Virus record (IMG/VR): IMGVR_UViG_3300019776_000133
Span: 1 to 30,579 of that record
DNA length: 30,579 bases
Direction: 5' to 3' (one strand)
Source of the DNA: a virus
Position numbers and translations under genes: made by a program
The notes under the pieces: model-generated
Databases searched by the model: none
Told to the model about the DNA's origin: nothing
The model's input: the letters and a program-made list of their open reading frames with translations, nothing else
Shown here: piece by piece, positions 293 through 15,380 of the stretch
How the letters are laid out: the number at the start of each line of letters is the position of its first letter
Position numbering within the stretch: position 1 is the stretch's first letter

Positions 293-300
293 GGTCTTTT

Positions 301-324
301 CTCCAGCGTCATCTCGACGTTAAG
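301..324 (-). promoter_or_regulatory. Leader hairpin element, copy 1
   Basis: On the minus strand the element reads CTTAACGTC-GAGAT-GACGCTGGAG. The CGTC/GACG stem closes a GAGA(T) loop, and the GGAG at its 3' end is the ribosome binding site of the tail-fibre gene. It matches three other copies (8414-8437, 9943-9964 and 15352-15374) in layout, with compensating stem changes. Its role is unknown; a leader RNA structure or a protein-binding site are both possible. Confidence 0.6.
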
Positions 325-327
325 TGG

Positions 328-355
328 TTGAATTTTAAGTGAATGCGGCTATATT
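328..355 (+). promoter_or_regulatory. Candidate sigma-70 promoter for the plus-strand microprotein
   Basis: TTGAAT (328-333) and TATATT (350-355) are separated by 16 bases on the plus strand, close to the sigma-70 consensus. The predicted start would fall at about 361-362, right at the ATG of the small plus-strand gene. The match was made by eye; there is no expression evidence. Confidence 0.4.
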
Positions 356-361
356 CGGACG

Positions 362-451
362 ATGGGTATCACCGATTACATGCTTTGGAAGCTCGTTGTT
401 TTTGCAACGCTTGCTTTCTTATGGGGACTTATCTTTGCGAAGCGGAAATAA
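362..451 (+). CDS. Small single-pass membrane protein (29 aa), opposite to the late operon
   Basis: The frame encodes 29 residues: a short polar start (MGITDY), then one hydrophobic segment at about residues 8-25, then a basic end (AKRK) and TAA. Its tail overlaps the 3' end of the convergent minus-strand gene by 23 bases. A promoter-like TTGAAT-16-TATATT lies just upstream, so the message could be almost leaderless; the only upstream purine stretch is a weak CGGAC. An alternative start is ATG 380, which keeps the membrane segment. Short proteins of this hydrophobic-then-basic shape are frequent in phages, sometimes as holin-like or membrane-modifying peptides, but no function can be assigned from this sequence. 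The reality of the gene is inferred from the pairing of promoter and membrane segment. Confidence 0.4.
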   Translation: MGITDYMLWKLVVFATLAFLWGLIFAKRK

Positions 452-2099
452 CCGGCGCAGTGGATAGCAATGGGGAGAACTGCTCCATATCCAGCAAACC
501 CATAGGGGTGCGTTGCAGAACTTGATTAGCGCCAGCACCAGCCTTGCCAGCCAAAAGACCTGTACCGCGCCGTAAAGCACCCAATCCATACGCAGCCTCA
601 CCCATAAGTCTGGGAGATGCAAAAGGCAACGCAGCAAGTGTCAACGGGTTTGCCAGGCTTGCAAGCCCAGCACCAGTAGCCGCCAATCCTTGAAGTCCTC
701 GAGGGGTAAAAGATGAAGCGGCCTGCCCAGCCACAGCAGGGAGAATGTCAGCACCATTGCCCTCAAGCGTGTTCGCCAAATTCAGCCGGTTGCCGTAGTT
801 GGCGTTTACGTTGTTACGCATCAGGCTTTGCAGCTTGCGCATGGACGTATCCGCAGCAGCCTTATTGCCAAGAGAAAGTGCCTTTTCAATTTCGGTCAAA
901 GTGTCGCTTGCCTTGCTGTAATCGCGCATCACTTTGGCATACGTTGGGGCTTGCATGTCAATCTGCGCTTTTACAGCGTTGTAAGCGGTGTCTGCCGCCT
1001 TGCGTCCAGGGGTGCCAAACTGGGTAGCGTCCCGCACGTCGCCAATAGCTTTTTTGAGCGCGTCCAGCCCTTCAGGTGTGTGGTACTCAGCCGGGTTTAG
1101 GCTCTTCCATTGGTTCACAAGTCCTGCAACTTCGTCAACCGTTCCGGCTGCGTTTTTGTTGATAACTTGGCCTTTGAAACTGCCCATTGTTTTCAATGAA
1201 TCGACAGCCTTTTCAATCGGAGTGAAGTCGATCACAGATTTGTCATTGGCGATGTCAACCATGCCACTGCGGTACTGGTTTCCACGCTCGATACGCATCT
1301 TGGAAAGAGCTTCTTTTGCGCTGTCCAAAACATCAGTCATGGGGACATTCCCGCGCATGTTGTCCAGAAAGCTAGTGCCACCCTCTTTGCCTGCGCGGTA
1401 CGCCGTGCCGATTGTTTCGGCCCCGGCTCCGGTAGCCATGCCCAAAGTGTTTTTAGCCACAGAAGCTGCAGCGCGTCCTGTTAGTTTTCCAGCCTCGCCA
1501 GCAACTTTTACAATCCCAGGCAATGCGCCACCAATAAGCAGACCCGCACCAGCGTCCTCTGGATTAACCAAGCCAGTAGAGGCACCGCCAGACACCGCAC
1601 CACCTAGTGCGCGAATGCCCTGATCTTTCAAGAATGGGGATAGTCCGGTAGCAACTTTGGAGCCTGTTGAAAATCCACCAGTGGAAATTGCAGACAGAAG
1701 TGGGTCAACAGCAGCAGGAACAGACTTCCCCGCCATAGCTAGACCCATGCGGGTGCCGTTTGCAAGAGCGCCCCCCGCCCCAGCAGTGCCAAGCACTTCA
1801 CCAGTCAGCTTGCCAGCGCCATAGCCAAAAGAATCGGTTTCTGCGCCCATTGTCTGCAAGGCAGCATCCATGTCCGCACGGCGCTGGCGGTTTGATTCAA
1901 GCGACAAACCCTTTCCGTTAATAGCGTCCTTTGCCACATCCCAAGGGGCCAATATCGTTGCGCCAATCGAGCCAGCACCGCGCACCAGGCCAGCCAGCGT
2001 GTTGCCTGCACCTTGCTTCACATCTTCAGTGAAGGTGGTTTTTGGCGCATCAACAAATTCGTACCTGCTGGCTGGCTTATCAACAAACTCATATGCCAT
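429..2099 (-). CDS. Probable ejection (internal virion) protein
   Basis: The protein has 556 residues and is rich in Gly and Ala, with long glycine-zipper-like stretches (about 90-200 and near the C terminus around 475-530) alternating with charged helical regions. This composition is typical of podovirus internal proteins that are injected with DNA and form a channel across the cell envelope; P22 gp7, gp16 and gp20 play that role. I chose ATG 2099 because an AAGGGG ribosome binding site lies about 7 bases upstream. ATG 2129 would add 10 residues but lies inside the preceding gene. It is the last of four consecutive proteins of this kind. I do not recognise a specific named family, so the function is inferred from composition and position. 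Confidence 0.6.
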   Translation of the reverse strand: MAYEFVDKPASRYEFVDAPKTTFTEDVKQGAGNTLAGLVRGAGSIGATILAPWDVAKDAINGKGLSLESNRQRRADMDAALQTMGAETDSFGYGAGKLTGEVLGTAGAGGALANGTRMGLAMAGKSVPAAVDPLLSAISTGGFSTGSKVATGLSPFLKDQGIRALGGAVSGGASTGLVNPEDAGAGLLIGGALPGIVKVAGEAGKLTGRAAASVAKNTLGMATGAGAETIGTAYRAGKEGGTSFLDNMRGNVPMTDVLDSAKEALSKMRIERGNQYRSGMVDIANDKSVIDFTPIEKAVDSLKTMGSFKGQVINKNAAGTVDEVAGLVNQWKSLNPAEYHTPEGLDALKKAIGDVRDATQFGTPGRKAADTAYNAVKAQIDMQAPTYAKVMRDYSKASDTLTEIEKALSLGNKAAADTSMRKLQSLMRNNVNANYGNRLNLANTLEGNGADILPAVAGQAASSFTPRGLQGLAATGAGLASLANPLTLAALPFASPRLMGEAAYGLGALRRGTGLLAGKAGAGANQVLQRTPMGLLDMEQFSPLLSTAPVISASQR

Positions 2100-2109
2100 G
2101 TTAAGCCCC

Positions 2110-3507
2110 TTATTTCCAAACCAAACCATCAGAGGTAAGTGTCTTCCCAGTTACGGTGTCGCGTATGGTGCGGCCTTTATGCTGCGATGCAGGAGGCATG
2201 GCGTCCATTGCTGGCTTATCAGATGGCTGGTCTGCTGACTTCCCAGCTGACAGGTACTTGCGCTCTATGTTGTCCAGTGCCCTGCGGTTAGATTCAACGT
2301 CAAGGGTTGGGTCTGTAGCTGTTGCCATCCACATTTTCAACTCTGCGTTTGAGTCCATTTGCTTTGCCGACATGCCTGTGGCCTTCATCATCGCTGCAAG
2401 CAGGGCAGGTCGCGTCATCGCTATGTCGTTGCGCGCGGATTGATTGCTTGTGCCAAAGGTCTTGCCAAAAGCATTCCCTACGCCAGAGCTTGAAATTGAA
2501 GACAATGCGTTGCTCAATGCGCCATTTTTGGTGCTGGTTATGCCGCCGCCAGATTCAAGCCTATCGTAAGAGTCGCGCAAAACTGCAATGGCCGAGTCAA
2601 CATCAGAAGCGCCAGCGGCTTTAATTCCGGACGCAGCTTGCGCTTTCTGGTCTGTTGGGCCGCCGGGGATAACTTCCATTGAGCCATCAGCTTTCCATCG
2701 ATAGCCAGTCGGGGCCTTCCCAAACTGCTTGTTGAGTCCAGCTTGAACCGCACCGCCCTCGCCACCTCCGTTCATATCCCAACTCAAACGCTGCCGAGCG
2801 ATAGAAAGATTGCCAGCGGCATTCTTGTCTGCGAATGTCATCGTCTTTTGCAAAGATGTAATTGGCTTCAGTGTGTAAGGATCAAGTGCCGACACATTGC
2901 CGCCCAAATCTTGCATCAATGGCGCTTTGTACTGCTCAAACCCAGAGCCGACTTTATTACCGTAGTCATCAACTTGGTACTCGTACTCTTTCCCCTCAGT
3001 CCCCTTGCCCTTAACGACACGAGCAACCTTGTTTTGGCCGATGTTGCGCAATGCATCTAGCTCTGCCACTTCTTTTGCCGTATAGCCATTTGCAAGCGCT
3101 AGAGGAACATTGATCGATGCTTGACGAGAAGGCACCGCAGGCTGTGACGGTAGGCCAGTACGCATCTCAGGCGGCAACGTGGAATCAACATTCAAAGCAG
3201 GTGTGCCATTGCTTGCAGGCTGGAAAATATTAGCCAAAGCCGCTTGCTTGCGGTTAGCCAAATCAATTGCCATCTGCTCTTGCTGCGCCTTCAGCTTGCG
3301 CTGCTCAATCTCAGACTTTTGAGCATCCATCAGCGTCTGCATGTAGGCGTCTTTTTGCTTCTGCTGCTTCCATGCTTGCGCACTCTGCACACCCTCCATC
3401 AAACGTGTGCCAAACCCCGCACCGTCAGCACGTGGAGCAGCAGCAGCCAATAGACCTAAGCCTAGCTGCGCATCACCGTTGTCGAATAGATCAAGTAGAC
3501 CTGCCAT
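2110..3507 (-). CDS. Probable ejection/internal virion protein with N-terminal coiled coil
   Basis: The protein has 465 residues. Residues 1-30 are Ala/Leu/Gly-rich. Residues 42-90 form a Gln/Lys/Glu-rich helix (KQQKQKDAY…AQKSEIEQRKLKAQQEQ) that should be coiled coil. The middle is polar and repeat-free, and a helical segment around 340-420 precedes a short basic tail. The ribosome binding site AAGGAG sits over the stop codon of the upstream gene, showing operon coupling. Its place between the other Gly/Ala-rich proteins points to the injected-protein set of a podovirus. I cannot name a family. A structural (virion) role is well supported by context; the ejection role is inference. Confidence 0.6.
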   Translation of the reverse strand: MAGLLDLFDNGDAQLGLGLLAAAAPRADGAGFGTRLMEGVQSAQAWKQQKQKDAYMQTLMDAQKSEIEQRKLKAQQEQMAIDLANRKQAALANIFQPASNGTPALNVDSTLPPEMRTGLPSQPAVPSRQASINVPLALANGYTAKEVAELDALRNIGQNKVARVVKGKGTEGKEYEYQVDDYGNKVGSGFEQYKAPLMQDLGGNVSALDPYTLKPITSLQKTMTFADKNAAGNLSIARQRLSWDMNGGGEGGAVQAGLNKQFGKAPTGYRWKADGSMEVIPGGPTDQKAQAASGIKAAGASDVDSAIAVLRDSYDRLESGGGITSTKNGALSNALSSISSSGVGNAFGKTFGTSNQSARNDIAMTRPALLAAMMKATGMSAKQMDSNAELKMWMATATDPTLDVESNRRALDNIERKYLSAGKSADQPSDKPAMDAMPPASQHKGRTIRDTVTGKTLTSDGLVWK

Positions 3508-3519
3508 GATTCAGGCTCC

Positions 3520-4662
3520 TTAGAATGGTTTGGAAGTAGAACCAAGGCTAGACAACCCCAAGTTCAACGGAGTGACTGTCTGGCTTTGTGGAGTGCGTTG
3601 GTACGGCTTCCAGTTGTTCATTTGAGGAATCAGACCGTTCACGGAACTGCGGAACTGATTACCCAGATTCGCGCTGTTGTTGTATGCCTGTTGCTGGAAC
3701 TGCGAGAACGGGTTTGCAGCGTATTTGGCTTGCAAGTCCTGACCAAACCCTAGATTGGCTTTCATCCACGCTTGAGCGGGTGCCCAAGGGTCTTTATTGG
3801 CCGTTGTCGAGGTAGAAGAACTGCCAGAGCCAGCAGCGCCAGCAACTGCACCAATCAACGGCGCATAGGTCTTTGCCGCGTCCAAAACATCGCTTAGTGT
3901 CATAGCACCTCCTACACCTTGAGTGGCATTTAATCCGGCACCGGCAGAACTTGCGCCGTAGCCTGGGGAATTTGCGGCAGAGTCTGCCAATACAGAATTT
4001 GTCGCTGAAGAAGTGGCGGCAGGCGTAGTTGCGCCACTTGCTGCGGCAGCAGTTCCAGCCGCAGCACCAGAAGCAATCGGAGTCCACCCGCCAACCAGCC
4101 CACCAGTTACAGGAGTCGACGCAACGGCACCAGATGCAACCTCTCCACCGATCAAGCCGCCAGATGCGTCGATCACAGCAGGGGCAGCCGCACTACCAGT
4201 AGCACCACCCAATAGCCCCGCAGCGCCCAATGCTCCATATCCAGCAATGCCGCCGATGATCGCGGGAGCGTATGGGCGCAATGCTTCGCCAACCTCTCCA
4301 ACTGGAGTAGTTATGGCACTTCCGATGCTATTTACAGCGCCGCCAACCGCCCCCAAAATACCACCGAATCCAGAGTTGACTGCTGACGGGTCAAGCCACT
4401 TTCCATTGGAAGAGTCAGTGACAAAGCGGTTTTCAGGATCAAAAGTTGAATTCCCGCCCCAGTAATAACCGTCTGGATGAGGCGCAGCGTATGCCGCAGC
4501 CTCCGCTGCTTTGACTGCAGCGATCCTGTCTGCTTCGGACTGTGGCTTTCCAATGAGTTCTTGTCCGGCTGGAGGTGCAGGATAAGAACCGCTGGAGCCT
4601 CCGTACAGGTTCCCATCGCTGTCCATGAAAGCGCTGTATTTGGAGTTCCAATAAAGTGCCAT
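3520..4662 (-). CDS. Gly/Ala-rich virion protein, probable ejection protein
   Basis: The protein has 380 residues. Its N-terminal 90 residues contain aromatic, polar repeats (ALYWNSKYSAF, DGYYWGGN). A long low-complexity Gly/Ala/Ser/Thr stretch (about 95-285) follows, with predicted glycine-zipper membrane-active segments such as APAIIGGIAGYGALGAAG. The C terminus, from about 290, is polar and Asn/Gln-rich. It starts 2 bases after the stop of the Asn/Gln-rich gene upstream. The composition and neighbours suggest a protein injected with the DNA that inserts in the host envelope. No catalytic motif such as a lytic transglycosylase site was seen. Confidence 0.55.
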   Translation of the reverse strand: MALYWNSKYSAFMDSDGNLYGGSSGSYPAPPAGQELIGKPQSEADRIAAVKAAEAAAYAAPHPDGYYWGGNSTFDPENRFVTDSSNGKWLDPSAVNSGFGGILGAVGGAVNSIGSAITTPVGEVGEALRPYAPAIIGGIAGYGALGAAGLLGGATGSAAAPAVIDASGGLIGGEVASGAVASTPVTGGLVGGWTPIASGAAAGTAAAASGATTPAATSSATNSVLADSAANSPGYGASSAGAGLNATQGVGGAMTLSDVLDAAKTYAPLIGAVAGAAGSGSSSTSTTANKDPWAPAQAWMKANLGFGQDLQAKYAANPFSQFQQQAYNNSANLGNQFRSSVNGLIPQMNNWKPYQRTPQSQTVTPLNLGLSSLGSTSKPF

Positions 4663-4664
4663 GA

Positions 4665-5432
4665 TTAACCCTTCGCAATAGAAGAGCCAAGAGACCAGCC
4701 GCCCAAAGCTCCAAGCAACTGATTACCAGGCAATGCTTGGGTGCTAGTAGAAGTTCCACCAAAACCGCCGATAGAGTTCGCCATGTTGTTGAACTGGTTG
4801 AAGTAGTCCAAAGGCGCGTTCTGCACGTTCGTCCCGTCGGTAATGTCCTGCTGACCAAACGTATTTGCTTGGTTCATCAGTGCCATGTAGTTCTGCAACT
4901 GCTGTTGTTGCTGGTTGAACGAGGTGTTGTACTGACCAGCATCGAAGTTCTGACCTGTCCAATACTGGTTAGCGTCAAAGTTGCGATTCTGGAAGTCTTG
5001 GTTAAACGCTTGGTTCTGCGCGCCCAACCCATAGTTGGCCCATCCCATGTTTTGGTTGTAGGCGTTCTGATTGGACGCAAGACCTTGATTGAAGTCCTGC
5101 GCGTTCTGCTGCAAGCCAAACTGCTGGTTGCCCATCTGCTGGTTGTAGAGTTGGTTCTGAGCCTGCAAGCCAAATTGCTGTTGTCCAAGATAGGCGTTGT
5201 TCTGCATGTTCGCAGCGACATTGCCCATCGATTTCAACTGATTCTGATCGTCCTGCTGGCGCATTTGCTGCAGGCCAGAGTTACCAAATGAACCCGAGTT
5301 CACCATGGCATTCTCTTGCTGCGGGCGGTTGATCAGGTTGTAGTTGTTCGCCATGTCTTGCATGGTCGAATTAACTGCGCCCTGTGTATACGGGTTCATC
5401 CCGCCAAATCCGAGGTTGTAGGTGTCTGCCAT
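4665..5432 (-). CDS. Asn/Gln-rich virion protein with quasi-repeats
   Basis: The protein has 255 residues and is exceptionally rich in Gln and Asn. From about residue 60 to 200 it shows recurring units of roughly 11 residues built on N-Q-x-(F/Y/M)-N-Q and Q-F-G-L-Q, which would give a long amphipathic helix or extended filament. I chose ATG 5432 because AGGGAA lies 6 bases upstream and the preceding gene stops at 5434; the in-frame ATG 5504 lies deep in that gene and is unlikely. The C terminus (about 210-255) is Gly/Ser/Leu-rich. By position it belongs to the tail/ejection module. The exact role is unknown. Confidence 0.6.
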   Translation of the reverse strand: MADTYNLGFGGMNPYTQGAVNSTMQDMANNYNLINRPQQENAMVNSGSFGNSGLQQMRQQDDQNQLKSMGNVAANMQNNAYLGQQQFGLQAQNQLYNQQMGNQQFGLQQNAQDFNQGLASNQNAYNQNMGWANYGLGAQNQAFNQDFQNRNFDANQYWTGQNFDAGQYNTSFNQQQQQLQNYMALMNQANTFGQQDITDGTNVQNAPLDYFNQFNNMANSIGGFGGTSTSTQALPGNQLLGALGGWSLGSSIAKG

Positions 5433-5433
5433 A

Positions 5434-5724
5434 TCAATTCCCTGTGAGATAACGACACTGAAGCCATGTGCCAGGTGTGCCAGCGACAGTGCAGCGCCAG
5501 CCATGTACCAGATACTTACTACCAGCCGTGCCCGCTTCTGTTGGGTTGCTGTTTAGTAGAAAGTCGCCTTTATTCCAAGTGCCCGTAGTAGGGGCTGCAG
5601 TTGCTGCCGTGTAGAAAGCCACTAGACGGCCCTCAGACAGTGCATTGACCTGCTGGGCTACATCTCTGTACCAGCGGGCGGTTTCTGCGTCCACATTAAC
5701 GCGGGGCGTGACGTTGAGCTTCAT
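5434..5724 (-). CDS. Small tail-module protein of unknown function
   Basis: The protein has 96 residues. A short N-terminal helix (TARWYRDVAQQVNALSEG, about 16-33) precedes a beta-rich second half with several aromatic and Gly residues (TGTWNKGDF, KYLVHGWRC, GTWLQC). The start ATG overlaps the stop of the upstream gene as ATGA, so translation is coupled. The helix-then-beta layout is typical of small podovirus proteins near the tail hub that may trimerise or attach a fibre. No family is recognised and no enzymatic motif is seen. Confidence 0.65.
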   Translation of the reverse strand: MKLNVTPRVNVDAETARWYRDVAQQVNALSEGRLVAFYTAATAAPTTGTWNKGDFLLNSNPTEAGTAGSKYLVHGWRCTVAGTPGTWLQCRYLTGN

Positions 5725-7184
5725 GCCTCACCCTCTGGGGTGATCACAGCACCCATCGCCAACACGCGCACATCACCTGTGAAATTGAACGTGGCACGGT
5801 GGAAGCGTCCAGACTGGAGAACGTCAAATTTCCCGTCATTCATTGCCGCACCGGAGACAACCGAGACAAGCGCATCACCCTCCACCATCTTGGTGAAAGT
5901 CGAAACAGTCGCAGAAGCCGGTGAATAGCCGGGCGCATACCGGAGTCGGATGCGAGAAAGCAGACTTACTCGGTCATCGTCACCTGCATCCCCAGTGGTA
6001 AACGAGGAAGAGGATGAAACACCCGTCAGCAACTGGAGTTGATGCGAGGTGTTGATGGTGGACAAAGCCCGCCCACCAGCCAGCCAGAACTGTGAGTCAA
6101 ACGAGTACCCAGAAAGACCGTCAATGGTGGAACTGAGCGAACTCAGGCCATCAATCGTGACGCCTGACGAGATGTAGTTCAGCACCGACTCAATCGAGAG
6201 CGTTGCGCATCCCCATTGTTTTGTGAGCGTGTGATAAACAATGGCCTGATCTGGAGATGTTGAGCCGTTAGAGCAGTAGAAAGCCCACACCAGATTATTT
6301 TGCCGGTCAAAGACGCACTGGGTCTTGTACCGATACGAAGGGTTGGAGTTGTCGTAGAACCATTGGCGCATCTGCCCCACGCCGATAGGCTCAGGGCGAG
6401 AGCCATCAAACACCCAAATATTGTCTTGGCCGATGATGAAGTGGGCACCGCCAATATCGCACCAGGCATCCTGCCCAACACAACCAGCCTGCCCACCAGG
6501 GACTTGAATCCAATCCCATACAGCGGGAGCGCCGACAAATTGACCGACATAGATGGCTGTGTCTTTATAGGCCACCGCATATTCACCCAAACGGCCTCCA
6601 GCTACGATCTGGCCTTGAGTTGACACCAACTGTCCAGTAGTCGCCAAAGTCGTTACAGAAGGCGTCCAGCTTGTTTCGTCGTAGGACGCACAGCACCACC
6701 AGCGGTTCGGTGATGTTCCGTAAGTCCCATCCACCGTGTTCAAGGCCATGACAAATGCGCCCACTGTGAACACAATCTTGGCTTTGGGGGCTGTTGCAAT
6801 CGCTGCAAACGCACCGCCAGAAGAAGTAGATCGTTGGATGGTGTCTGCCAAGTTTGCCGCTACGGTGGAATTTCCGAACTGGGCGAATGACCACCGCGTA
6901 TCCACACCACCGGCATACACCGCACCGGACAGATCAGACCATGCACCGGCAATCAGTTCATACAGCTTTGTCTGAGTCCCAGCCAGAATGCGGCGTGTGT
7001 CATCCAAGCGGGTGACTACCGCAGCACCTTGGCACGCTGCAGCCAGTGCGGGAGTGGATGCGGGAGTGGATGCAGACGGTGCGCCTTTCATCCCGTTGAC
7101 GTAGGGGATCAGGTTTGTGCAGGACGTGATCACACCGGGAACCGTGGGGTCGGCGTCTGGAGTGAAACCTAGGAACTTGTCCAT
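5721..7184 (-). CDS. Tail hub/DNA-stabilisation-like protein (P22 gp10-like)
   Basis: The protein has 487 residues. It begins with a segment on initial contacts (FTPDADPTVPGVITSCTNL). The body contains repeating beta-propeller-like blades, each with aromatic or Gly-Asp turns, for example WSFAQFGNS, RWWCCASYDETSW, GQDNIWVFDGSRPEPIG and DRQNNLVWAFYC. This layout matches the podovirus tail-hub proteins known as packaged DNA stabilisation protein gp10 or gp10-like nozzle. It lies just after the adaptor gene and before the small tail and ejection genes, as in P22-like modules, with a TAATG overlap to the adaptor. The assignment rests on pattern and position, not on a computed alignment. Confidence 0.6.
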   Translation of the reverse strand: MDKFLGFTPDADPTVPGVITSCTNLIPYVNGMKGAPSASTPASTPALAAACQGAAVVTRLDDTRRILAGTQTKLYELIAGAWSDLSGAVYAGGVDTRWSFAQFGNSTVAANLADTIQRSTSSGGAFAAIATAPKAKIVFTVGAFVMALNTVDGTYGTSPNRWWCCASYDETSWTPSVTTLATTGQLVSTQGQIVAGGRLGEYAVAYKDTAIYVGQFVGAPAVWDWIQVPGGQAGCVGQDAWCDIGGAHFIIGQDNIWVFDGSRPEPIGVGQMRQWFYDNSNPSYRYKTQCVFDRQNNLVWAFYCSNGSTSPDQAIVYHTLTKQWGCATLSIESVLNYISSGVTIDGLSSLSSTIDGLSGYSFDSQFWLAGGRALSTINTSHQLQLLTGVSSSSSFTTGDAGDDDRVSLLSRIRLRYAPGYSPASATVSTFTKMVEGDALVSVVSGAAMNDGKFDVLQSGRFHRATFNFTGDVRVLAMGAVITPEGEA

Positions 7185-7789: not shown

Positions 7790-8094
7790 ACGCGCCCTTC
7801 CCATACTCTGAGCGCCCGATAGTCGGGATCGTTCAGGAACGCAATCTTGTGGACTTCATTCGCGGAGAACTCTCGAAACGTGATGCCCTTGTCGTTGCAG
7901 TATTTCTCCACAACAACAAAGGGGACAGAAGCGGCGAGGCGCATTTCACTGGAGCCGTGGAATCCCTCATTGCGAAGGGCTTTCACATGGTCAACGATGG
8001 CCGTGCAGTCTTGTGAAGTACCGGTAACCAATGCACCATCTTGCAATGCAATGATGGACTTCACTCCATTGCCGTGATCGATTACCGACTGCAT
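7786..8094 (-). CDS. Conserved phage protein of unknown function (102 aa)
   Basis: The protein has 102 residues and is mixed alpha/beta: an N-terminal beta hairpin (VIDHGNGVKSIIALQDGALVTG), then a helix around 28-45 (CTAIVDHVKALRNEGFHG), then a helix-rich C terminus (VVVEKYCNDKGITFREF). It starts with a TAATG overlap to the gene before and ends with an ATGA overlap to the adaptor. This position, between capsid accessory genes and the adaptor, is typical of short head-completion proteins. No specific family is recognised. Confidence 0.65.
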   Translation of the reverse strand: MQSVIDHGNGVKSIIALQDGALVTGTSQDCTAIVDHVKALRNEGFHGSSEMRLAASVPFVVVEKYCNDKGITFREFSANEVHKIAFLNDPDYRALRVWEGRV

Positions 8095-8408
8095 TAGCTG
8101 TTCTCCAGCGGAGAAACCTGCACAACACCAGCGGCAGATACTTGAATGGCAGCCACCTTGTCGTAGCCCTTGGGCACAGCAAGAATCACTGCATCACCTG
8201 GCTGCACTTGCATGTCAGTGGTGACAGCCGTTGCAGAGGTTTGACCAATGCGCACACAAGCGGGAGCCGTAGCTGCAACGCGGATGTAGTTCGGGATTCG
8301 GCCCGATGAATCGTTGGGGATTGTTGCGCTGGCAGAGGTGCCGGATGTGGCGAGCGATACGCCAGTGGATACGACAGTTACGAAACCGCCGCCGAAGATT
8401 TGAGCCAT
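8094..8408 (-). CDS. Small beta-rich head protein, possible decoration or fibre protein
   Basis: The protein has 104 residues, mostly beta strand, small residues and alternating Thr/Val/Ala (VSTGVSLATSGTSASATIP, IRVAATAPACVRIGQ). Its central section resembles a compact beta-sandwich with a short loop PGDAVILAVPKGYD. It starts behind copy 2 of the leader hairpin, with GGAG 6-9 bases ahead of the ATG. Placed two genes after the major capsid protein, it may be a capsid decoration or head-fibre protein. That role is inferred. Confidence 0.6.
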   Translation of the reverse strand: MAQIFGGGFVTVVSTGVSLATSGTSASATIPNDSSGRIPNYIRVAATAPACVRIGQTSATAVTTDMQVQPGDAVILAVPKGYDKVAAIQVSAAGVVQVSPLENS

Positions 8409-8413
8409 ATTGT

Positions 8414-8437
8414 CTCCAGCGCAATCACTGCGTTAAG
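8414..8437 (-). promoter_or_regulatory. Leader hairpin element, copy 2
   Basis: On the minus strand it reads CTTAACGCA-GTGAT-TGCGCTGGAG. The CGCA/TGCG stem closes a GTGA(T) loop, and the final GGAG is the ribosome binding site of the gene at 8094-8408. Relative to copy 1, two of the four stem pairs change in a compensating way. Confidence 0.6.
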
Positions 8438-8451
8438 AGTTGATAAATAGA

Positions 8452-8466
8452 GGGGTCTTTCACCCC
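8452..8466 (-). terminator. Weak intergenic hairpin
   Basis: GGGGT-GAAAG-ACCCC on the minus strand forms a 5-bp stem, followed by the T-containing stretch TCTATTTATC. A second small inverted repeat (TTGAG-CACCA-CTCAA) lies just before it. The T tract is poor, so this may attenuate rather than terminate, or may only be a leader structure. It sits between the gene at 8500-8943 and the next small head gene. Confidence 0.3.
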
Positions 8467-8499
8467 AAACCATTTATTGAGTGGTGCTCAAATTTTAAC

Positions 8500-8943
8500 T
8501 TAGGCGGGTGCCAAAGTCACGGTAAACGAACCCACGCCAGCAGCACCAGGAGCGCCACTGATCACGAATCCAATACGCGAACCTGCAGCCACATCCAATA
8601 CGCTTGCAGTAGCGGATAGAGTGAGCGTGACAGGCGTTGCGGCAGTTGCTTGCAAAGATGCAGTACCGGAGTGCAGAGCAGTACCAGAACCCAGCGCAGT
8701 GCCGGATGCAGCCTTGTAGAGCGTTGCTGTCACTGCATTGGTTGCAGTGGTATCAACCACGTGGCGAATGTCCTTCACGATCATGCGACGGGCCATAACG
8801 GGGCCGCTGACAGTCAGGAATGCGCCTGTGGTGTTGGTGATTGCAGACCAAGGCAGAGTGACAACGATGAAACCACCGTCATCAGCATCCGTGCCCTGCA
8901 AGCCTGCGGACATATCCGCGTTTTGCTTCAGATTTACAGCCAT
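8500..8943 (-). CDS. Capsid-associated beta-sandwich protein, possible decoration protein
   Basis: The protein has 147 residues. A polar N terminus (AVNLKQNADMSAGLQGTDADDGG) precedes a Thr/Ala/Val-rich beta domain with alternating strands (FIVVTLPW, AVTATLYKAASG, TPVTLTLSATASVLDVAAGSRIGFVISG, GSFTVTLAPA). It is the first gene after the major capsid protein. Its ribosome binding site is AAGGA, about 7 bases upstream. Phages with SU10-type capsids often encode a head-decoration or head-fibre protein here, but I do not recognise this one specifically. A structural role is likely; decoration is inference. Confidence 0.6.
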   Translation of the reverse strand: MAVNLKQNADMSAGLQGTDADDGGFIVVTLPWSAITNTTGAFLTVSGPVMARRMIVKDIRHVVDTTATNAVTATLYKAASGTALGSGTALHSGTASLQATAATPVTLTLSATASVLDVAAGSRIGFVISGAPGAAGVGSFTVTLAPA

Positions 8944-8969
8944 GATTTTTCCTTGTTAAGTAGATTTGA

Positions 8970-8993: not shown

Positions 8994-9009
8994 GTTACTC
9001 AATCAGGGT

Positions 9010-9930
9010 TTAGGAAAGATCGTAAATCGCACCCAATGCCTTGGGGGCGCGGGCTTCGAGGCAGTATTCCACCAGGATTTCGCGCTGCTCGGCATCACCA
9101 GTTTTTGCCAGTTCCACGGTCTGGAACGGACGCAGGTAGGCAACAGCCAACTTATCGGACTGCAGCACGAAGGCTTCGCGGGTAGCTTGGAAGCGATTGG
9201 GGATGGCTTGCAGCGTGCCGAAGTCGGACACGTAGAAGTCAACCGACGCATAGAGCTTGGCATCTTCAGACTTGTCCATGCGAGTGGCATTACCAGTAAA
9301 ACCGGAGAATGTCTGCTTCGCAGTAGGAGGCATCATCAGCGTGTCAGGCTCGCCACCGTTGGTGAAGATTTGCTGCAGCACGTCTTTCACTTGCGACTCA
9401 GTAAAGGCACGTTGAGTACCAGTGCTGTAGCCAGTGTTGCCGGTGTAAGAAGCCAAAGTGCCGCCGTTGCGGTTCACGTTGTCCACACACCAGCCACGCA
9501 GGCCGCGAGACTTGCGGGGAGCAGTTGCGGAAACGTCATTCTGGGTCAGGCCGAATTCCATATCGCGCTTGATTTCGGCAGAAGCCAAAGCCAGTTGATA
9601 TGCCAGTTCGTCCTTGCGGCCAGCAGGGTTCATGGCTTGTTGAGTGCCAGAAACTACAACCTTCTTTGCGGCGATCTGTGTGCGGTTGTTCAGGCGAACA
9701 GTCACGGTCACAGTCTTGGCGGTCAGGTCATCGCCTTCAGCCTGGGCATTGTCAGCAGCCGAGGCCAGTTCTTGCACTTGCCACTCGTGCAAAGTGTTGG
9801 TCGCCTTGGATTTGGCGGCCATGTTCAGCACGGGGGTTTGCGTGGGTGAAATTCTGTAGATTGTGTCCGTGAGGTCCTCGCGATTTCCGATTGCAGCGGT
9901 AGTGAGGAATGTATTGGTGGGTGCAGTCAT
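9010..9930 (-). CDS. Major capsid protein (SU10-like, DUF5309 family)
   Basis: The protein has 306 residues. The N-terminal signature (LTTAAIGNREDLTDTIYRISPTQTPVL) is the typical arm of the SU10/DUF5309 major head protein family, an HK97-fold capsid protein. The segment HEWQVQEL with a following beta strand (KTVTVTVRLNNRTQIAAKKVVVSGTQ), and the C-terminal half with FYVSDFGTLQAIPNRF and DKLAVAYLRPFQTVELAKTGDAEQREILVEYCLEA, fit this family. The order scaffold, capsid, accessory genes is conserved. The ribosome binding site AAGGAA lies 7-8 bases before the ATG, preceded by hairpin copy 3. It forms the icosahedral or elongated shell around the DNA. Confidence is high for the role and good for the family. 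Confidence 0.88.
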   Translation of the reverse strand: MTAPTNTFLTTAAIGNREDLTDTIYRISPTQTPVLNMAAKSKATNTLHEWQVQELASAADNAQAEGDDLTAKTVTVTVRLNNRTQIAAKKVVVSGTQQAMNPAGRKDELAYQLALASAEIKRDMEFGLTQNDVSATAPRKSRGLRGWCVDNVNRNGGTLASYTGNTGYSTGTQRAFTESQVKDVLQQIFTNGGEPDTLMMPPTAKQTFSGFTGNATRMDKSEDAKLYASVDFYVSDFGTLQAIPNRFQATREAFVLQSDKLAVAYLRPFQTVELAKTGDAEQREILVEYCLEARAPKALGAIYDLS

Positions 9931-9942
9931 GTCTGCTTCCTT

Positions 9943-9964
9943 TCAAGCGTCTCTCGACGTTAAG
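9943..9964 (-). promoter_or_regulatory. Leader hairpin element, copy 3 (major capsid gene)
   Basis: On the minus strand it reads CTTAACGTC-GAGA-GACGCTTGA. The CGTC/GACG stem closes a perfect GAGA (GNRA) tetraloop, about 25 bases ahead of the capsid ATG. Stem sequence agrees with copy 1 and the loop lacks the extra T. It may affect expression of the most abundant virion protein. Confidence 0.6.
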
Positions 9965-9966
9965 AA

Positions 9967-10923
9967 TTAAAGAAATTGCGCGAATACGGCGGCGGCGTCT
10001 TCAACCCGGCCTGTCTTACCCAAGCGCTGCATTGCTGCGCTGCGTCCGTCAGGTCGTGAGACTTCGCCCGTACCGCTTTTGATCACCCGCTGAGGTGCCG
10101 CAGAAACCTTCTTGGCTGCTGCATTGGCCTTGCTCATCATCGCGTCGTAAAGCATGGCTTTGCGTCCGAGAATGACTGCGCGGTGATCTGTGATGTTTCC
10201 TACAGCCTCTGGCTCAAAGCCCTGCTCTTGCAGGTACTTGGACAAAGCCTGCTTTTCGGCTGCTGCCTTTGCGGGGTCTTTCCAGTCGGGCAACTTGGCA
10301 AGGAGTTCTTGCTGCTGCGTGCGAACGAATGACTCCATCGCTTTGGTCTGTTCAGCCTGGGCCTGCTGTTGCAGATACTGCTGCTGCTGTAGGTTTTGCT
10401 GAAATGCGGCTTGTCTCTGTTGAAAGAGGTGCTGCTGTTTCAGGTATTCCACAGGATCAGAATCAAGCAACTGCTGCCAATCGATCTTTTGCTGCTCTTG
10501 CAGTGCGCCTTCCAGTTGTGCGGCCATCTTTTGCAAGTTGGCTTGGTACTGTGTGCGCTCTGCTTGAGCCTTTGCGATTTCAGCTTCTGCCGCCTTGCGG
10601 GTTTCAGCGACTTCCATCGTCTTCTTGGTGTAGTCGGACTGTCGTAGCCCGTTCTTGTAGTAGTCGGCCAATTCAGCCTTGGACAGCTTGACTTCCTTGC
10701 CATCGACTTCGATGGTGATAGCCTCACCCTCCTCTGCTGGAGCCTCTTCTACAGCGGGAGATTCTTCCTCTGCTTTCGCTTCGGTCAAATCCGCTATGAC
10801 TTCCTTTTCCAGGTCATCAGCGCTCTTTTCCACCACCTCTGGGGGGGCTAACAAAGCGCTGAAAGCCTGTGCTGCACCGTCTACGTTCAACGGGCCAGTG
10901 GATTCCTGTGCAGGAGTGTCCAT
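9967..10923 (-). CDS. Capsid scaffolding protein
   Basis: The protein has 318 residues. An acidic N-terminal third (EKSADDLEKEVIADLTEAKAEEE) is followed by a short folded motif that includes ADYYKNGLRQSDYTKKTMEV at about 88-107. A very long Gln-, Ala-, Lys- and Glu-rich coiled coil follows (about 110-235). The end is basic, as expected for a scaffold's capsid-binding tail. It lies immediately upstream of the major capsid gene, the standard place for a scaffold. The DYYKNGLRQSDYTKKTMEVAE-type motif is seen in many scaffold proteins of this kind. It should help assemble the procapsid and then leave. Confidence 0.78.
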   Translation of the reverse strand: MDTPAQESTGPLNVDGAAQAFSALLAPPEVVEKSADDLEKEVIADLTEAKAEEESPAVEEAPAEEGEAITIEVDGKEVKLSKAELADYYKNGLRQSDYTKKTMEVAETRKAAEAEIAKAQAERTQYQANLQKMAAQLEGALQEQQKIDWQQLLDSDPVEYLKQQHLFQQRQAAFQQNLQQQQYLQQQAQAEQTKAMESFVRTQQQELLAKLPDWKDPAKAAAEKQALSKYLQEQGFEPEAVGNITDHRAVILGRKAMLYDAMMSKANAAAKKVSAAPQRVIKSGTGEVSRPDGRSAAMQRLGKTGRVEDAAAVFAQFL

Positions 10924-11008
10924 ATTTACCTCGGTCTAAATCCCCACCTCATGGCACTAGGAGGGGTTGCGGCGCTTCTCAGCGGACGCGAATGGCTAAG
11001 TGCCTAGC

Positions 11009-11155
11009 CTAAATTTCAATGAATTCGCTTGTGTTCAATTGGCCTTTGATCTCACCAACAAACACGTTCAGATTGCCGTTGTCACGCAGGATCACTTCCT
11101 GCTCTGGCTTCGGGTGGTACACATGACGCAAGCCGGGATGCTTGCAGGCGCTCAC
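11009..11155 (-). CDS. Small protein with GTG start coupled to the upstream gene (48 aa)
   Basis: The frame encodes 48 residues (SACKHPGLRHVYHPKPEQE… ending in EFIEI). I place the start at GTG 11155 because it overlaps the TGA of the gene at 11152-11451 as GTGA, and GGAT lies about 7 bases before it. The same frame stays open up to an ATG at 11341, but that N-terminal extension lies entirely across the other gene in a different frame and reads as a shadow. The protein is basic in its first third with three His residues. No family is recognised. It is positioned between the SGNH gene and the scaffold. Confidence 0.5.
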   Translation of the reverse strand: MSACKHPGLRHVYHPKPEQEVILRDNGNLNVFVGEIKGQLNTSEFIEI

Positions 11156-11451
11156 TCGATCCAGGAATTGAACCCAGTCTTCAGCTTGTCGAACATCGAC
11201 TGCTGGTGGGCGATCTCCAACTGGGCCAACTTGCCCGTTTCCAGCGTTGTGGTCAGGTGCATCTGCACCTTCTTCAGCAGCATGAGGTATGTCCACAGGG
11301 ACTCTCTTCCGGTACTGTCTCTTGCGGGGCTGCTCTTCCATTGTTCGATTACCTCTTTTTCTATGGCCTCAAACGCTGCAATGAATGCCTCGTTTTCAAG
11401 CACTTCTTTGGCTCGGTTGCCGTTGTAGATTTGTTGTTCAGTGGTTGCCAT
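11152..11451 (-). CDS. Conserved small phage protein (99 aa), head module
   Basis: The protein has 99 residues and looks fully helical: NGNRAKEVLENEAFIAAFEAIE (about 10-31), then KEVIEQWKSSPARDS-TGRE, then LWTYLMLLKKVQMHLTTTLETG. The segment N-G-x-x-A-x-x-V-L-E-N-E-A-F with W-K-S-S-P-A-R-D is a pattern I associate with short proteins near portal/scaffold genes of podoviruses. Their role is not established to my knowledge. The ribosome binding site GGAGGAGG is strong but sits 17-18 bases upstream, on the 3' side of a GC-rich hairpin. Confidence 0.7.
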   Translation of the reverse strand: MATTEQQIYNGNRAKEVLENEAFIAAFEAIEKEVIEQWKSSPARDSTGRESLWTYLMLLKKVQMHLTTTLETGKLAQLEIAHQQSMFDKLKTGFNSWIE

Positions 11452-11476
11452 GTCGTTTCATGTTCCGTTTCCTCCT

Positions 11477-11519
11477 CCCCCACCTACAGACTCGTTAGCT
11501 GTATGCGGGGGGGTGGGGG
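11477..11519 (-). other. GC-rich intergenic hairpin at the SGNH gene boundary
   Basis: On the minus strand CCCCCACC pairs with GGTGGGGG (8 bp) and an inner TACAG/CTGTA stem adds 5 bp around a 9-base loop. The 3' arm runs into GGGGGAGGAGG, the Shine-Dalgarno region of the next gene. No T tract follows, so this is not a classical terminator. It may mask the ribosome binding site or mark the boundary of an inserted gene. Confidence 0.45.
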
Positions 11520-13064
11520 TTAGGCGGTAGCGGTTATCTTGCGAACTGACCAGCGGCCAATCTTCAATGTGGCACCACCAGCGCCGGAGCCAAACACGGA
11601 CACTTGCGACTGCACGTTAGTCAGAGCGCCAAGCGCCACCGTGTCAACAGTGAACGGATTGGTACGCAGGGTCATGGTCAAACTCGCAGGCATTGGCGCG
11701 GCCATGGAGAGGTCGTTTGTCGCATCAAGCTGCATGGTCGTGGCGGTGAAGCTGCTTGATGCTCCTGTTGCACTCAGGTTAAGGCGCACACAACGGGTTG
11801 CCGTGTAGGAACTGAGCGTTACTTCGCACTCAGCCACCAGCACATCGCCACTCGACACGTTCGCTTTCAAGTCGCCAGTGGTGACGCGCAAAGAATCGTT
11901 GTTCGCAGCAAAGGTGCAAACCTCTTGCAGGTCAAATCCAAAGCCGTCAGCACGCGCAACCAGCGTCTCCGTTGTGCTGCCAGCAGTGCCAGTCAAAGAG
12001 CGGGTGAAGCCAGTTCCGGGCGCAGCACCAGTTACAAAAAGCCCGTTGGTCAAGATGTTGGTGCTGGAAGCGGAATATGCCTTGTTGTCCGCATTGCTGG
12101 AAAGCAGTTGATGCGACTCGGGGATAAACAGATTCCACATCCGCGCAAGCTCCGCGCCCATAGGATACGCGCCAATGTTGCGAGGGTGCAGATTGTCGTA
12201 GAGATAATTCGTCAAGCCGCTTGCGGTAGTGCTGGCCGGGTCAACCACCACGGCGGCAAGATCAACCACGAACACGCCGCGTTTCGCATATTGAGTGGAT
12301 GCCTGCTGCCGAATCCAGTCGTTGACCTCCAGCATCTTCCCCTGCGCCGCTACGGAGTACGAGCTATAGGCTGAATTCACGGTTGGTGCGATGACCCACC
12401 AGACGGTCATGCCTGCGGCAATCGCAGAGTTGACAATCGTCAGCCATGCAGCCTTCACATCTGCCACAGCAGCACCAGCTTGGAAAAAGTCGTTTACGCC
12501 GCCTTGAACCAGCAGATGCCCAGCGCCGGATGCAATCGCTAAAGGCAATTGGGTTGCACTGATGTTTGTTCCAGCGCCAGCACCCGTAAGCATTGAGCCA
12601 CCAAGCGACTGGTCACTGACAACGGTCAGGCGGTCTTTGGAAAGTGCCAGCGCCCAAGTAATGTAGCCCTTGGGGTTGCGCTCCGAGATGGTTGCGCCAA
12701 CACTGCGCCACAACGCGCTCACCGAATCGCCAATGATTGCCAATGTGTTTGCGTTGCGAAGCTGCATCACCTGCCCGCTAGGCCCCACCAGCCCGGTGGG
12801 GGTGCCGTCGGAGGCGAGGGAATAAGTCGGTACAGGTCCAACCGTTGTGCTGGTCTGCGTATAAGTCCCAGTACCAGAGCAAGCAATGCTCACGCTCGTA
12901 GAGTTTTGCTTGTACGGGCCTAAAACTTGAACGCCACTCAGGAATGACGTGTAAACCGATCCGCTAGACGTTGTGATCGTTGCAACGCCCTTGCCAGAGA
13001 AAGTTACGGCGTCGTCGTAGTCAAAGGTAAGGCTGAGAACCTGACCGTCTGTAAATGTTGCCAT
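11520..13064 (-). CDS. SGNH/GDSL-type esterase, probable virion-associated deacetylase
   Basis: The protein has 514 residues in three parts. Residues 1-105 form a beta-rich N-terminal domain (GPYKQNSTSVSIACSGTG region). The SGNH hydrolase core spans about 107-320: block I GDS at 112-114 with nucleophile Ser114, block II near Gly155-156, block III G-V-N-D at 189-192, and block V D-N-L-H at 290-293 supplying the Asp/His pair. The C-terminal beta sandwich (about 335-514) looks like a carbohydrate-binding or oligomerisation domain. SGNH enzymes remove acyl groups from lipids or polysaccharides; phage versions often deacetylate host surface glycans. It starts with a TGATG overlap to the portal gene. 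Finding it between portal and scaffold rather than beside the tail fibre is unusual. Confidence 0.8.
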   Translation of the reverse strand: MATFTDGQVLSLTFDYDDAVTFSGKGVATITTSSGSVYTSFLSGVQVLGPYKQNSTSVSIACSGTGTYTQTSTTVGPVPTYSLASDGTPTGLVGPSGQVMQLRNANTLAIIGDSVSALWRSVGATISERNPKGYITWALALSKDRLTVVSDQSLGGSMLTGAGAGTNISATQLPLAIASGAGHLLVQGGVNDFFQAGAAVADVKAAWLTIVNSAIAAGMTVWWVIAPTVNSAYSSYSVAAQGKMLEVNDWIRQQASTQYAKRGVFVVDLAAVVVDPASTTASGLTNYLYDNLHPRNIGAYPMGAELARMWNLFIPESHQLLSSNADNKAYSASSTNILTNGLFVTGAAPGTGFTRSLTGTAGSTTETLVARADGFGFDLQEVCTFAANNDSLRVTTGDLKANVSSGDVLVAECEVTLSSYTATRCVRLNLSATGASSSFTATTMQLDATNDLSMAAPMPASLTMTLRTNPFTVDTVALGALTNVQSQVSVFGSGAGGATLKIGRWSVRKITATA

Positions 13065-15346
13065 CAGTATTCACCCGCCTCGTCTGAAAGTGCAGCATCT
13101 GCCGCATCGTCTTGCTGTTTGCTAACCGTTGCCTGCGCTGAAATCTGAGCCGTCATTAGTTGGACTTCTGCACGCATGCGCTCTATTGCCATCTCATGGG
13201 CACGCTGCAAATCGGCTTGGTGCGCTTCGGTCAAAGCCTGACGCTCTTTAGCCTGCTGCTCCATTTGCTTTGCAAGCGTGTCTTGCTGGGCTTGGAACTC
13301 TTGCTGTTGGCGTGCAAGCTCAATGTCACGCTGCATCTCACGCTGATGCTGTTTGTCTGCAATCTGAGCCTTCATCTGCTCAATCTGCATGGAAGTCTGT
13401 GCTTTGCCCTGCTCTATCTGCATCTGAGCCTGTGCCTTCATCTGCTCAGGATTGGGCTGCGGAGGCTTGGGCGGTGCTTTGGCTGGGTCAGTAAAAAACT
13501 TGTCGCCGTTCTTGAAGCCCAAGAGCTTGGACAGTTCAGCACTTGCCTGATAAATGTTCTCAGGATTCGCCACACCCAGCGGGAATGTCTGTGCCTGCTG
13601 CTGAATCAAGGCCATCAGGTGCTGCACCTTCTGATCCTTATTCCCCATGCCGATACCGACATTGATCGTTACATCAAACTGGTTGCGCCACTCACGCGGA
13701 TCAATGGCCTGCCATCCACCGGACAGCTTCACCATGGCTTCTTTGTCTTGATGCTGACAAACCAGCTTCAGAATCAGCTTGAACAGGTCTGTAAAGCCTT
13801 CAGCGAAGTTCCGCGCAATCATGTCGATTCGCATATCCGCTTTGTTGGTGACGATGTTCGCAGCTGTCGCAGTAGTCTGCAAACCAGAAGCATCGTTACC
13901 CATCGACTGGCGTGACCAACCCGTGCGGTTCTCCAAGTCCTGCTGCATGTACTCCATGAGCTGGTACGACTCACCGGAGTTGCCAAGACCTTGATCCAAC
14001 CGGCCCACTGCCCCTTGTTGCTTGATACGCACCACGCCACCAGGGCGAGATGTCAGCAAGTCATCAAGGTTGACCTGCCCTTCAACGGCAAAGTAGCGGC
14101 CATTGACGTTCAGGTACATGTTGTCCAACTGGCTGCGCAGAATGGACGTTTTGGTGCGCTGGCTTTCCATCGCCAGATCAGCAACAGACAGGCCAAAGAA
14201 CGTATGAGGCAAAGGAACCGGAGTGATAGACACGAAAGGCGTGTAATCCACCTCCTCGTTGTCCAGCAACTCGTTACCGGCCACTGTCACTTTTCGCAAC
14301 TCGACAATGCCATCACCATCAAAGTCACAGCGCAGGTAACCCTCAGTCACCCACACCGTCTTCTGCGCATCGTCCACCGTGATCTCGTTGGACAGATAGG
14401 CGTTTTCGTCGTTCCAGCTTAGGCGCTGGATGCGCTCCATGTTCAGACCTTGGGATTGATCATCACCAGAAAGGTTGTCGACATTCTTGTAACCCATCGA
14501 CTTCAACTCAGACAATGTGCGCTGCACACGATGGCCGCAGAAGCGTGCAGTTTGAATGTCTTTAGCGTTACGGCTGATCAGGAATTCTTCAGGCGGTACG
14601 TTGTCAATCTGAATCTTGCCCGCAGTCTTCACGCGCTTGCAAACAATGTCGTACAGCATCTTGGGCGGCTGGGCCTGAATCTGTGCAAGTTGCTGCTGCA
14701 TACCCATAACGGCCTGTTGTGCCTTGGGGTTTCCCTGTTGAGCCGCTGCCATAGCCTGCTCTAGCTGCATACCCATCTGCTGCATGGCCTGCTGACGCTG
14801 CTCTGCGTCTTCTTCGTCTGGATAGGTGTTCTGTTCGATCACCTCGATCTCTTCATCGTCCAGAATCTGCGCAAGCTCAACGTCACCAAGGCCCTTGTAC
14901 TCTTCCTTGGTTTCCTCGTGGCGCGTGTCCCACCACACCTTCACAATGCCGTTTTTCTGGAGAAGGGCATCCTTCATCCACGTATATGCAATGCGGTGCC
15001 CAGCGTTCTTTTTGAAGAACAGATAGTTCACGTACTCCGTGGCAGACCGGGCCTTCTGCTCATCCTCCGGGCCTTGCGCCTCAAACTCTGCGATCTCATC
15101 GCCACCCGTGAACGTCACCATCAACTGCGGCAGCATTGCTTCAATGGTGTCGCGCACATCAGTAGATACAACGGACGAACGCCCATCAATCTCCGGTGGA
15201 GTCAGATCACCCACAGGCAGGCCGAGGTAGTAATACATCGACTTTTGCCGTGCTGTGGCGAGTTTGGACGTGTTGAAGCCCAAGGACTGACGAAGCTCAC
15301 TCTGAACGAGTGCCTTCAGTTCATCGGCGGTTAGTCCTTTTGCCAT
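13064..15346 (-). CDS. Portal protein (P22-type family)
   Basis: The protein has 760 residues. The N-terminal region (ARQKSMYYYLGLPVGDLTPPEIDGRSSVV followed by TDVRDTIEAMLPQL) is the recognisable start of P22-like portal proteins. A conserved core contains the wing and stem (FDGDGIVELRKVTVAGNELL, MESQRTKTSILRSQLDNMYLN, GWSRQSMGNDASGLQTTATAANIV). From about residue 635 it carries a long Gln/Lys/Met-rich coiled coil that would form the barrel reaching into the capsid. It forms the dodecameric DNA gate. ATG 15346 follows hairpin copy 4 with a short CTGGAA ribosome binding site. Its size and neighbours (TerL upstream, scaffold downstream) fit. Confidence 0.9.
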   Translation of the reverse strand: MAKGLTADELKALVQSELRQSLGFNTSKLATARQKSMYYYLGLPVGDLTPPEIDGRSSVVSTDVRDTIEAMLPQLMVTFTGGDEIAEFEAQGPEDEQKARSATEYVNYLFFKKNAGHRIAYTWMKDALLQKNGIVKVWWDTRHEETKEEYKGLGDVELAQILDDEEIEVIEQNTYPDEEDAEQRQQAMQQMGMQLEQAMAAAQQGNPKAQQAVMGMQQQLAQIQAQPPKMLYDIVCKRVKTAGKIQIDNVPPEEFLISRNAKDIQTARFCGHRVQRTLSELKSMGYKNVDNLSGDDQSQGLNMERIQRLSWNDENAYLSNEITVDDAQKTVWVTEGYLRCDFDGDGIVELRKVTVAGNELLDNEEVDYTPFVSITPVPLPHTFFGLSVADLAMESQRTKTSILRSQLDNMYLNVNGRYFAVEGQVNLDDLLTSRPGGVVRIKQQGAVGRLDQGLGNSGESYQLMEYMQQDLENRTGWSRQSMGNDASGLQTTATAANIVTNKADMRIDMIARNFAEGFTDLFKLILKLVCQHQDKEAMVKLSGGWQAIDPREWRNQFDVTINVGIGMGNKDQKVQHLMALIQQQAQTFPLGVANPENIYQASAELSKLLGFKNGDKFFTDPAKAPPKPPQPNPEQMKAQAQMQIEQGKAQTSMQIEQMKAQIADKQHQREMQRDIELARQQQEFQAQQDTLAKQMEQQAKERQALTEAHQADLQRAHEMAIERMRAEVQLMTAQISAQATVSKQQDDAADAALSDEAGEY

Positions 15347-15351
15347 GTAAG

Positions 15352-15374
15352 TTCCAGCGCATCACTGCGTTAAG
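15352..15374 (-). promoter_or_regulatory. Leader hairpin element, copy 4 (portal gene)
   Basis: On the minus strand it reads CTTAACGCA-GTGA-TGCGCTGGAA. The CGCA/TGCG stem closes a perfect GTGA (GNRA) tetraloop, with the following GGAA acting as ribosome binding site. Stem sequence agrees with copy 2 and loop length with copy 3. Confidence 0.6.
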
Positions 15375-15380
15375 TTAATT

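Follow-up and report, generated by a model that had tools for sequence, protein, structure and literature searches.

What does a small hairpin do when a virus repeats it in front of several of its late genes, and does it act as RNA? This question is raised by the window analyzed here, a 30,579-base IMG/VR virus record. Control of phage late genes is usually described at the level of transcription, and we looked at the hairpin, its relatives in other phages and its possible roles.

Hairpin copies in the window

A sequence-only reading had proposed four copies of the hairpin on the minus strand, and all four lie exactly where it had placed them (cores in Table 1). Direct reading of the sequence also confirmed that each copy is preceded by CTTAA and has CTGGA or CTTGA after the stem, that the stem is CGTC/GACG in copies 1 and 3 and CGCA/TGCG in copies 2 and 4, and that an extra T follows the loop in two copies (1 and 2). 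An ORF ATG comes after each of the four. The motif was counted four times in the window and not once in 100 dinucleotide-preserving shuffles. The strong matches of a covariance model, R1, to the window were exactly these four copies (E = 1e-8 to 2.5e-7), which are themselves among the 131 seeds of the model. For copy 2, the model structure is also the minimum free energy fold. A partial fifth copy lies 48 nt upstream of the scaffold ATG with a second hairpin between, and the scaffold leaders of relatives have the same layout.

Table 1. Hairpin copies, the genes behind them and neighboring features of the window
Feature	Position	Strand	Match	Description
Copy 1	297..330	-	R1, 38.2 bits, E 1.1e-8	Core 324-301, CTTAA CGTC GAGAT GACG CTGGAG; NAA/CN loop, CGTC/GACG stem, GAGAT loop, GGAG; leader of tail-fibre-like ORF 2-292
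Copy 2	8410..8443	-	R1, 38.1 bits, E 1.1e-8	Core 8437-8414, CTTAA CGCA GTGAT TGCG CTGGAG; full CUCU/GGAG lower helix, CGCA/TGCG stem, GTGAT loop; leader of 104-aa ORF 8094-8408
Copy 3	9938..9970	-	R1, 33.5 bits, E 2.5e-7	Core 9964-9943, CTTAA CGTC GAGA GACG CTTGAA; CGTC/GACG stem, GAGA loop, lower helix shifted by one (UUC with GAA); leader of major capsid ORF 9010-9930
Copy 4	15348..15380	-	R1, 34.7 bits, E 1.1e-7	Core 15374-15352, CTTAA CGCA GTGA TGCG CTGGAA; CGCA/TGCG stem, GTGA loop; leader of portal ORF 13064-15346
Partial fifth copy	10971..10984	-	R1, 13.5 bits, E 0.17	CGCT GAGA AGCG CC, without AA
Gene behind copy 1	2..292	-		Tail-fibre-like N-terminus; open at window edge; no Pfam match
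Gene behind copy 2	8094..8408	-		104 aa; no PHROG or Pfam match
Gene behind copy 3	9010..9930	-	phrog_1328, E 3e-100	Major head protein
Gene behind copy 4	13064..15346	-	phrog_1216, E 6.5e-161	Portal protein
Gene behind partial copy	9967..10923	-	phrog_3927, E 6.9e-55	Head scaffolding protein
GDSL lipase-like ORF	11520..13064	-	phrog_6102; PF13472	Directly behind portal gene; start/stop overlap
Strong hairpin	8440..8500	-		GGGGUGAAAGACCCC inside AUAAAU/AUUUAU; between 147-aa ORF and copy 2
Scaffold leader	10925..11012	-		Element plus second hairpin

The minus-strand half of the window holds a LUZ24-type head module, consisting of terminase subunits, portal, scaffold, major head protein and virion proteins, together with the GDSL-lipase-like protein. 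Lambdoid genes are also present, encoding NinG, NinB, a DnaB-type helicase, a Sak-type annealing protein and an AlpA-like regulator. None of the GenBank phages matched the window at the DNA level, and many uncultured contigs encode homologues of its proteins, with the capsid protein up to 88% identical. PHROG matches support the names portal and major capsid that had been given to two of the genes behind the hairpin. The name small head protein was a guess, because the 104-amino-acid gene has neither a PHROG nor a Pfam match; similar genes stand behind the hairpin in relatives too. The tail fibre label of ORF 2-292 reflects an N-terminal resemblance to a longer protein behind the element in another contig, L299.

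The genes behind the hairpin had also been described as those at unlinked intergenic gaps, which is true in part. The element precedes four of the seven late genes with a gap of >30 nt and is missing before all 11 that are closely packed (Fisher p = 0.011), but the late genes at 8500-8943 and 11152-11451 have such a gap and lack the element. Its occurrence at the wider gaps and absence from packed genes fit the head of an independent translation unit. The leader that holds the GGGGUGAAAGACCCC hairpin folds with z = -2.9, and this hairpin may be a terminator or attenuator.

Structure and covariation

The full element has a 2-bp lower helix, an NAA/CN internal loop, a 4-bp upper helix and a GNGA(Y) loop, and alignment of sites gave the consensus NAA-CGNN-GNGA-NNCG-CY-GGAG. 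The 4-bp stem and its loop had been recognized at the outset, whereas the short lower helix and the internal loop, which may resemble tetraloop receptors, had been missed.

Two scans of IMG/VR left pairs of the stem free to vary. The first, CTTAACGNNGNGAN{0,1}NNCGCYGGAG with the inner pairs unconstrained, found 94 stretches; in 257 Gb of bacterial and archaeal genomes it found 19. At the viral sites essentially every free pair is formed, the single exception preceding no gene, while in the bacterial matches they are mostly unformed. The second scan, CTTAACG-N8-CGCTGGAG, specified neither the loop nor the inner stem, eight positions in all, and gave 57 distinct sites, 49 of which have a GNGA loop and both free pairs, where about 0.1 would be expected by chance; a start codon lies at most 13 nt away in 48 of these. 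Mismatched stems, which would speak against a conserved RNA, did not occur among the GNGA sites: with the pairs left free, 49/49 pair, compared with a mean of 19.7 and a maximum of 30 after shuffling of the 3' halves. This indicates that the stem is maintained by pairing and not by sequence.

The loop had been classed as GNRA. GTGA and GAGA are present as described, but the class is specifically GNGA and not GNRA in general: with the same flanks, GNAA loops gave six matches of two chance-like sequence types, none with an ATG close behind, against 94 for GNGA. On these counts we rejected a general GNRA stability hairpin. A natural loop variant, TTGG, with the same flanks and stem, was seen before a 749-amino-acid ORF in contig L385 (5604-5582, minus strand).

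Alignment A2, with 131 sites, was assembled with a paired upper helix required and the lower helix left free, so that the 100% pairing of its upper helix is by construction and the free-pair scans are the unbiased test. RNAalifold predicted from A2, unprompted, a lower helix beyond the NAA/CN internal loop. The inner-column pair of this helix forms in 126/131 sites (C-G 105, U-A 9, G-C 8, U.G 4), and the pair adjoining the internal loop forms in 124/131 (U.G 72, C-G 45, G-C 5); two additional pairs are present in part of the sites only. In portal and scaffold leaders the lower helix is often flipped (GGGA...UCCC, GCGG...CCGC). The covariation of A2 was 0.458; with the partners shuffled it was 0.195, and sliding them gave 0.178 at most. 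Each of the eight modelled pairs has changed on both sides with compensation, extending the covariation first noticed in the four window copies. Together with U.G as the commonest outer pair, these changes point to RNA rather than a DNA palindrome, and the original preference for a conserved RNA hairpin over a DNA operator is supported by the free pairs, the U.G pairs and the orientation. The predicted fold is weak, at -4.5 to -7.4 kcal/mol.

Position at ribosome start sites

The contigs read contain 91 R1 matches, and in 82 of them no more than about 8 nt separate the end of the model from a start codon; the others are tandem copies, or scaffold and similar leaders in which more sequence intervenes, in many cases with a second hairpin. 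When the best anti-Shine-Dalgarno match was located at 139 sites, 117 had it on the 3' strand of the lower helix, mostly 5 to 6 nt before the start. Four portal leaders have it on the 5' strand, 23 to 27 nt before the AUG with the hairpin between, so that its use would require the hairpin to remain folded; these leaders suggest that initiation can take place with the hairpin folded. The lower helix does not include the Shine-Dalgarno sequence in two scaffold leaders. The element often fits entirely into the gap from a stop codon to the next start.

Scaffold leaders with a second hairpin were also seen in G015 (27188-27220), G025 (12257-12289), G029 (10106-10138) and G021 (26749-26781). The second stems differ yet are complementary (GAATGGG/CCCATTC, GAGCGGG/CCCGCTC, GAGCCGG/CCGGCTC, CCCC/GGGG), and they put the element 34 to 48 nt before the start; possibly, this hairpin is a separate covarying leader RNA. 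Tandem copies before one gene occur in L184 (973-909, minus strand), L265/L268 (an Undibacterium prophage), G022 and G026, and the upstream copy in L184 has retained GGAG with no start codon close behind.

Carriers and target genes

R1 found one to six copies in 38 of 39 phage contigs, most of which had been found through the element. The carriers are described as freshwater phages, many only distantly related, and comprise LUZ24-type, P22-coat-type and siphovirus tail-tube-type lineages; unrelated capsid families have the element in common. The genes downstream encode LUZ24-type major head, portal and scaffold proteins, P22-type coat (PF11651), the phrog_6671 major-head type, siphovirus tail tube (PF18906), terminase and tail-fibre-like proteins. 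Most identified targets are thus virion genes. The clearest non-virion target is in a Burkholderiales genome (L266, 1525, minus strand), where a good copy precedes a 74-amino-acid protein, by eye an AlpA-type regulator; this copy counts against a role for virion genes only.

It had been anticipated that related phages lacking the element at the same genes would weaken the case. Among relatives of the window capsid gene, 36 of 56 leaders have it, with 7 to 10 changes on the tree, and it is absent from the other 20, but some of the relatives concerned (L002 and L003) keep it elsewhere. Since presence goes clade by clade and some relatives keep a copy at another gene, the element has been gained and lost rather than being nonexistent. 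Whole groups of relatives are without any copy and other groups have two to five. Late translation as such can evidently proceed without it, as a clade of close relatives has no copy.

The element was found in 3 of 399 Burkholderiales genomes, which led us to reject a host regulon. The named hosts are Undibacterium rivi and a Polaromonas MAG, and the host range of the carriers is inferred from these few cases. A search of 13 named phages with R1, among them LUZ24, tf, BPP-1, Rhodoferax phage P26218 and Venkman, brought no convincing match, and BLAST searches of GenBank phages with 37-nt consensus queries gave only chance-like matches. In contig L218 (2249-2202, minus strand), a terminator-like small RNA with CUCC motifs lies between a tRNA gene and the element-bearing gene; it weakly matches the Betaproteobacteria toxic sRNA (RF02278, 25.7 bits; gathering threshold 50).

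Possible roles

Strand, position, U.G pairs and the included Shine-Dalgarno sequence place the element in translation initiation, and most likely it controls this step for late genes. Its fold, position, gene class and spread over phage lineages are established by the data above, whereas an action on translation, a host-coded partner and a net positive effect are what we infer. We tentatively favor a cis-acting RNA that belongs to the region where translation of late virion genes begins, with a trans partner supplied by the host and a positive effect. Each copy in a polycistronic late message would fold into a small hairpin with the Shine-Dalgarno sequence on its lower helix, and the folded hairpin would be recognized in trans via its invariant unpaired bases, namely, the GNGA loop and the AA and C of the internal loop. 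The recognizer would most likely be the ribosome or a host RNA-binding protein, and recognition would give genes that lack coupling to an upstream neighbor an initiation of their own. The weak fold need not block ribosomes by itself, and the invariant unpaired bases imply a trans partner. We lean to a partner from the host because carriers have no protein in common and the element is spread over unrelated phages. The missing shared protein is weak support, since the contigs are incomplete and divergence could hide a small binder, and a diverged phage protein is nearly as likely a partner as one supplied by the host. The near absence of the element from host genes, odd for a signal that the host reads, also weakens the case for a host partner.

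A translational operator is a realistic possibility. Here, an RNA-binding protein of a phage or prophage would clamp the lower helix and hide the Shine-Dalgarno sequence, or open it like Mu Com, and one protein would tune all late virion genes together. Such an operator would account for a weak hairpin that contains Shine-Dalgarno bases plus sequence-specific unpaired nucleotides, for several copies per genome with occasional tandems (L184; G022, G026), for the all-or-none spread by clade and for the GGAG of the first L184 tandem copy, kept though no start codon follows closely. However, the lower helix is well conserved over just 2 bp, and in the two scaffold leaders mentioned the Shine-Dalgarno sequence lies outside it. 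Gene content points the same way: among 50 partial contigs, 30 carriers and 20 non-carriers, no gene was common to all carriers and missing from the non-carriers, and no protein at all was common to all carriers. The best correlated protein cluster, present in 11 of the 30 carriers, is cupin-like by eye and no candidate for an RNA-binding protein. A search of the carriers for the Com zinc finger gave no match, nor did its control, so that this search was without a positive control.

Processing or stabilization of the message is a rather improbable role, in which the hairpin would guide cleavage or cap the 5' end after an endonuclease cut between late cistrons. The element does lie in short gaps right behind an upstream stop codon (e.g., 9969-9967 in the window), and a cut there would leave each gene a protected 5' end of its own, but its location is locked to the start codon, its upper stem has just 4 bp and the Shine-Dalgarno bases within the structure are needless for a pure stability element. 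A DNA-level element (an operator, a promoter or a REP-like site for a DNA-binding protein or transposase) would explain a short inverted repeat with multiple copies per genome, but we give it hardly any credence, as it is contradicted by stem bases that vary freely provided they pair, by an outer lower position that is most often U.G (72/131), by strict orientation, with 48 of 49 unbiased sites in the sense direction immediately before a start codon, and by the frequent location wholly between two genes' stop and start codons.

For the cis-acting translation element with a host partner, a further and more doubtful step is that it is a signal shared by unrelated phages and read by the host ribosome or an RNA-binding protein as "late virion gene." If so, phage messages would enjoy a privileged initiation that host genes do not use, through a small RNA module that had moved between phages of one bacterial order or had arisen in them repeatedly. 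In any case, phage lineages whose capsid proteins are unrelated have a covarying RNA joined to the ribosome binding sites of their capsid, portal, scaffold and tail genes. As an RNA signal it is compact and open to testing; it is probably a new Rfam family, and it provides a marker by which late virion genes can be recognized in uncultured phages. The partner, once found, would reveal how a phage regulates virion assembly or else a feature of host translation that phages exploit.

Comparison with known systems

The boxB RNA of lambdoid phages is a small hairpin with a GNRA-like tetra- or pentaloop that acts in antitermination. The present hairpin is likewise small with a GNRA-like loop of either size, but its extra base follows the A (GNGAY), whereas that of boxB precedes it. 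A boxA/boxB antitermination site has a boxA-like sequence and a boxB hairpin in a leader distant from start codons, together with an N-type protein. The element does not fit this pattern, as multiple copies abut the start codons of several late genes and only NAA is invariant before the stem, with no full boxA in the leaders. Neither the window nor 13 element-bearing loci gave a relevant match in Rfam 15, even when the window and six of the loci were scanned at low thresholds, and no description of the element was found in the open-licence literature on conserved phage leader hairpins.

In the Mu Com-mom system, translation of a phage message is governed by an RNA structure together with a trans-acting factor; Com acts on one gene only and recognizes CC(N)2-3GAG (PMC6483171). 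Our hairpin differs from that site and precedes several genes. The T4 proteins RegA, gp32 and gp43 act on elements at translation initiation regions of phage messages, where our hairpin also sits (reviewed in PMC3014915). RegA acts on many genes through sites without clear structure, and the gp32 and gp43 sites, the latter containing a hairpin, are autoregulatory for single genes (PMC3014915). Unlike these operators, the hairpin has no dedicated protein known. By analogy, the T4 operators and Com-mom illustrate ways in which the element could work but do not identify it.

Among known elements, the closest is the start-associated sequence (SAS) of Cluster K mycobacteriophages, a short conserved repeat with many copies per phage in one orientation, which lies 3 to 7 bp before start codons, contains the Shine-Dalgarno core and is conserved beyond it (PMC3203893). 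SAS is almost absent from the host chromosome, and its function is not established (PMC3203893). The hairpin is like SAS in being multicopy, near start codons (82/91), in one orientation and with a Shine-Dalgarno core (117/139). SAS is, however, a fixed 13-bp sequence, GGGATAGGAGCCC, confined to the non-structural half of the genomes of one phage cluster, and the inverted repeats of its extended form, ESAS, were judged by the authors not to support RNA pairing (PMC3203893). The hairpin instead follows a degenerate consensus whose sequence varies while pairing is kept, its identified targets are mostly virion genes and several phage lineages have it.
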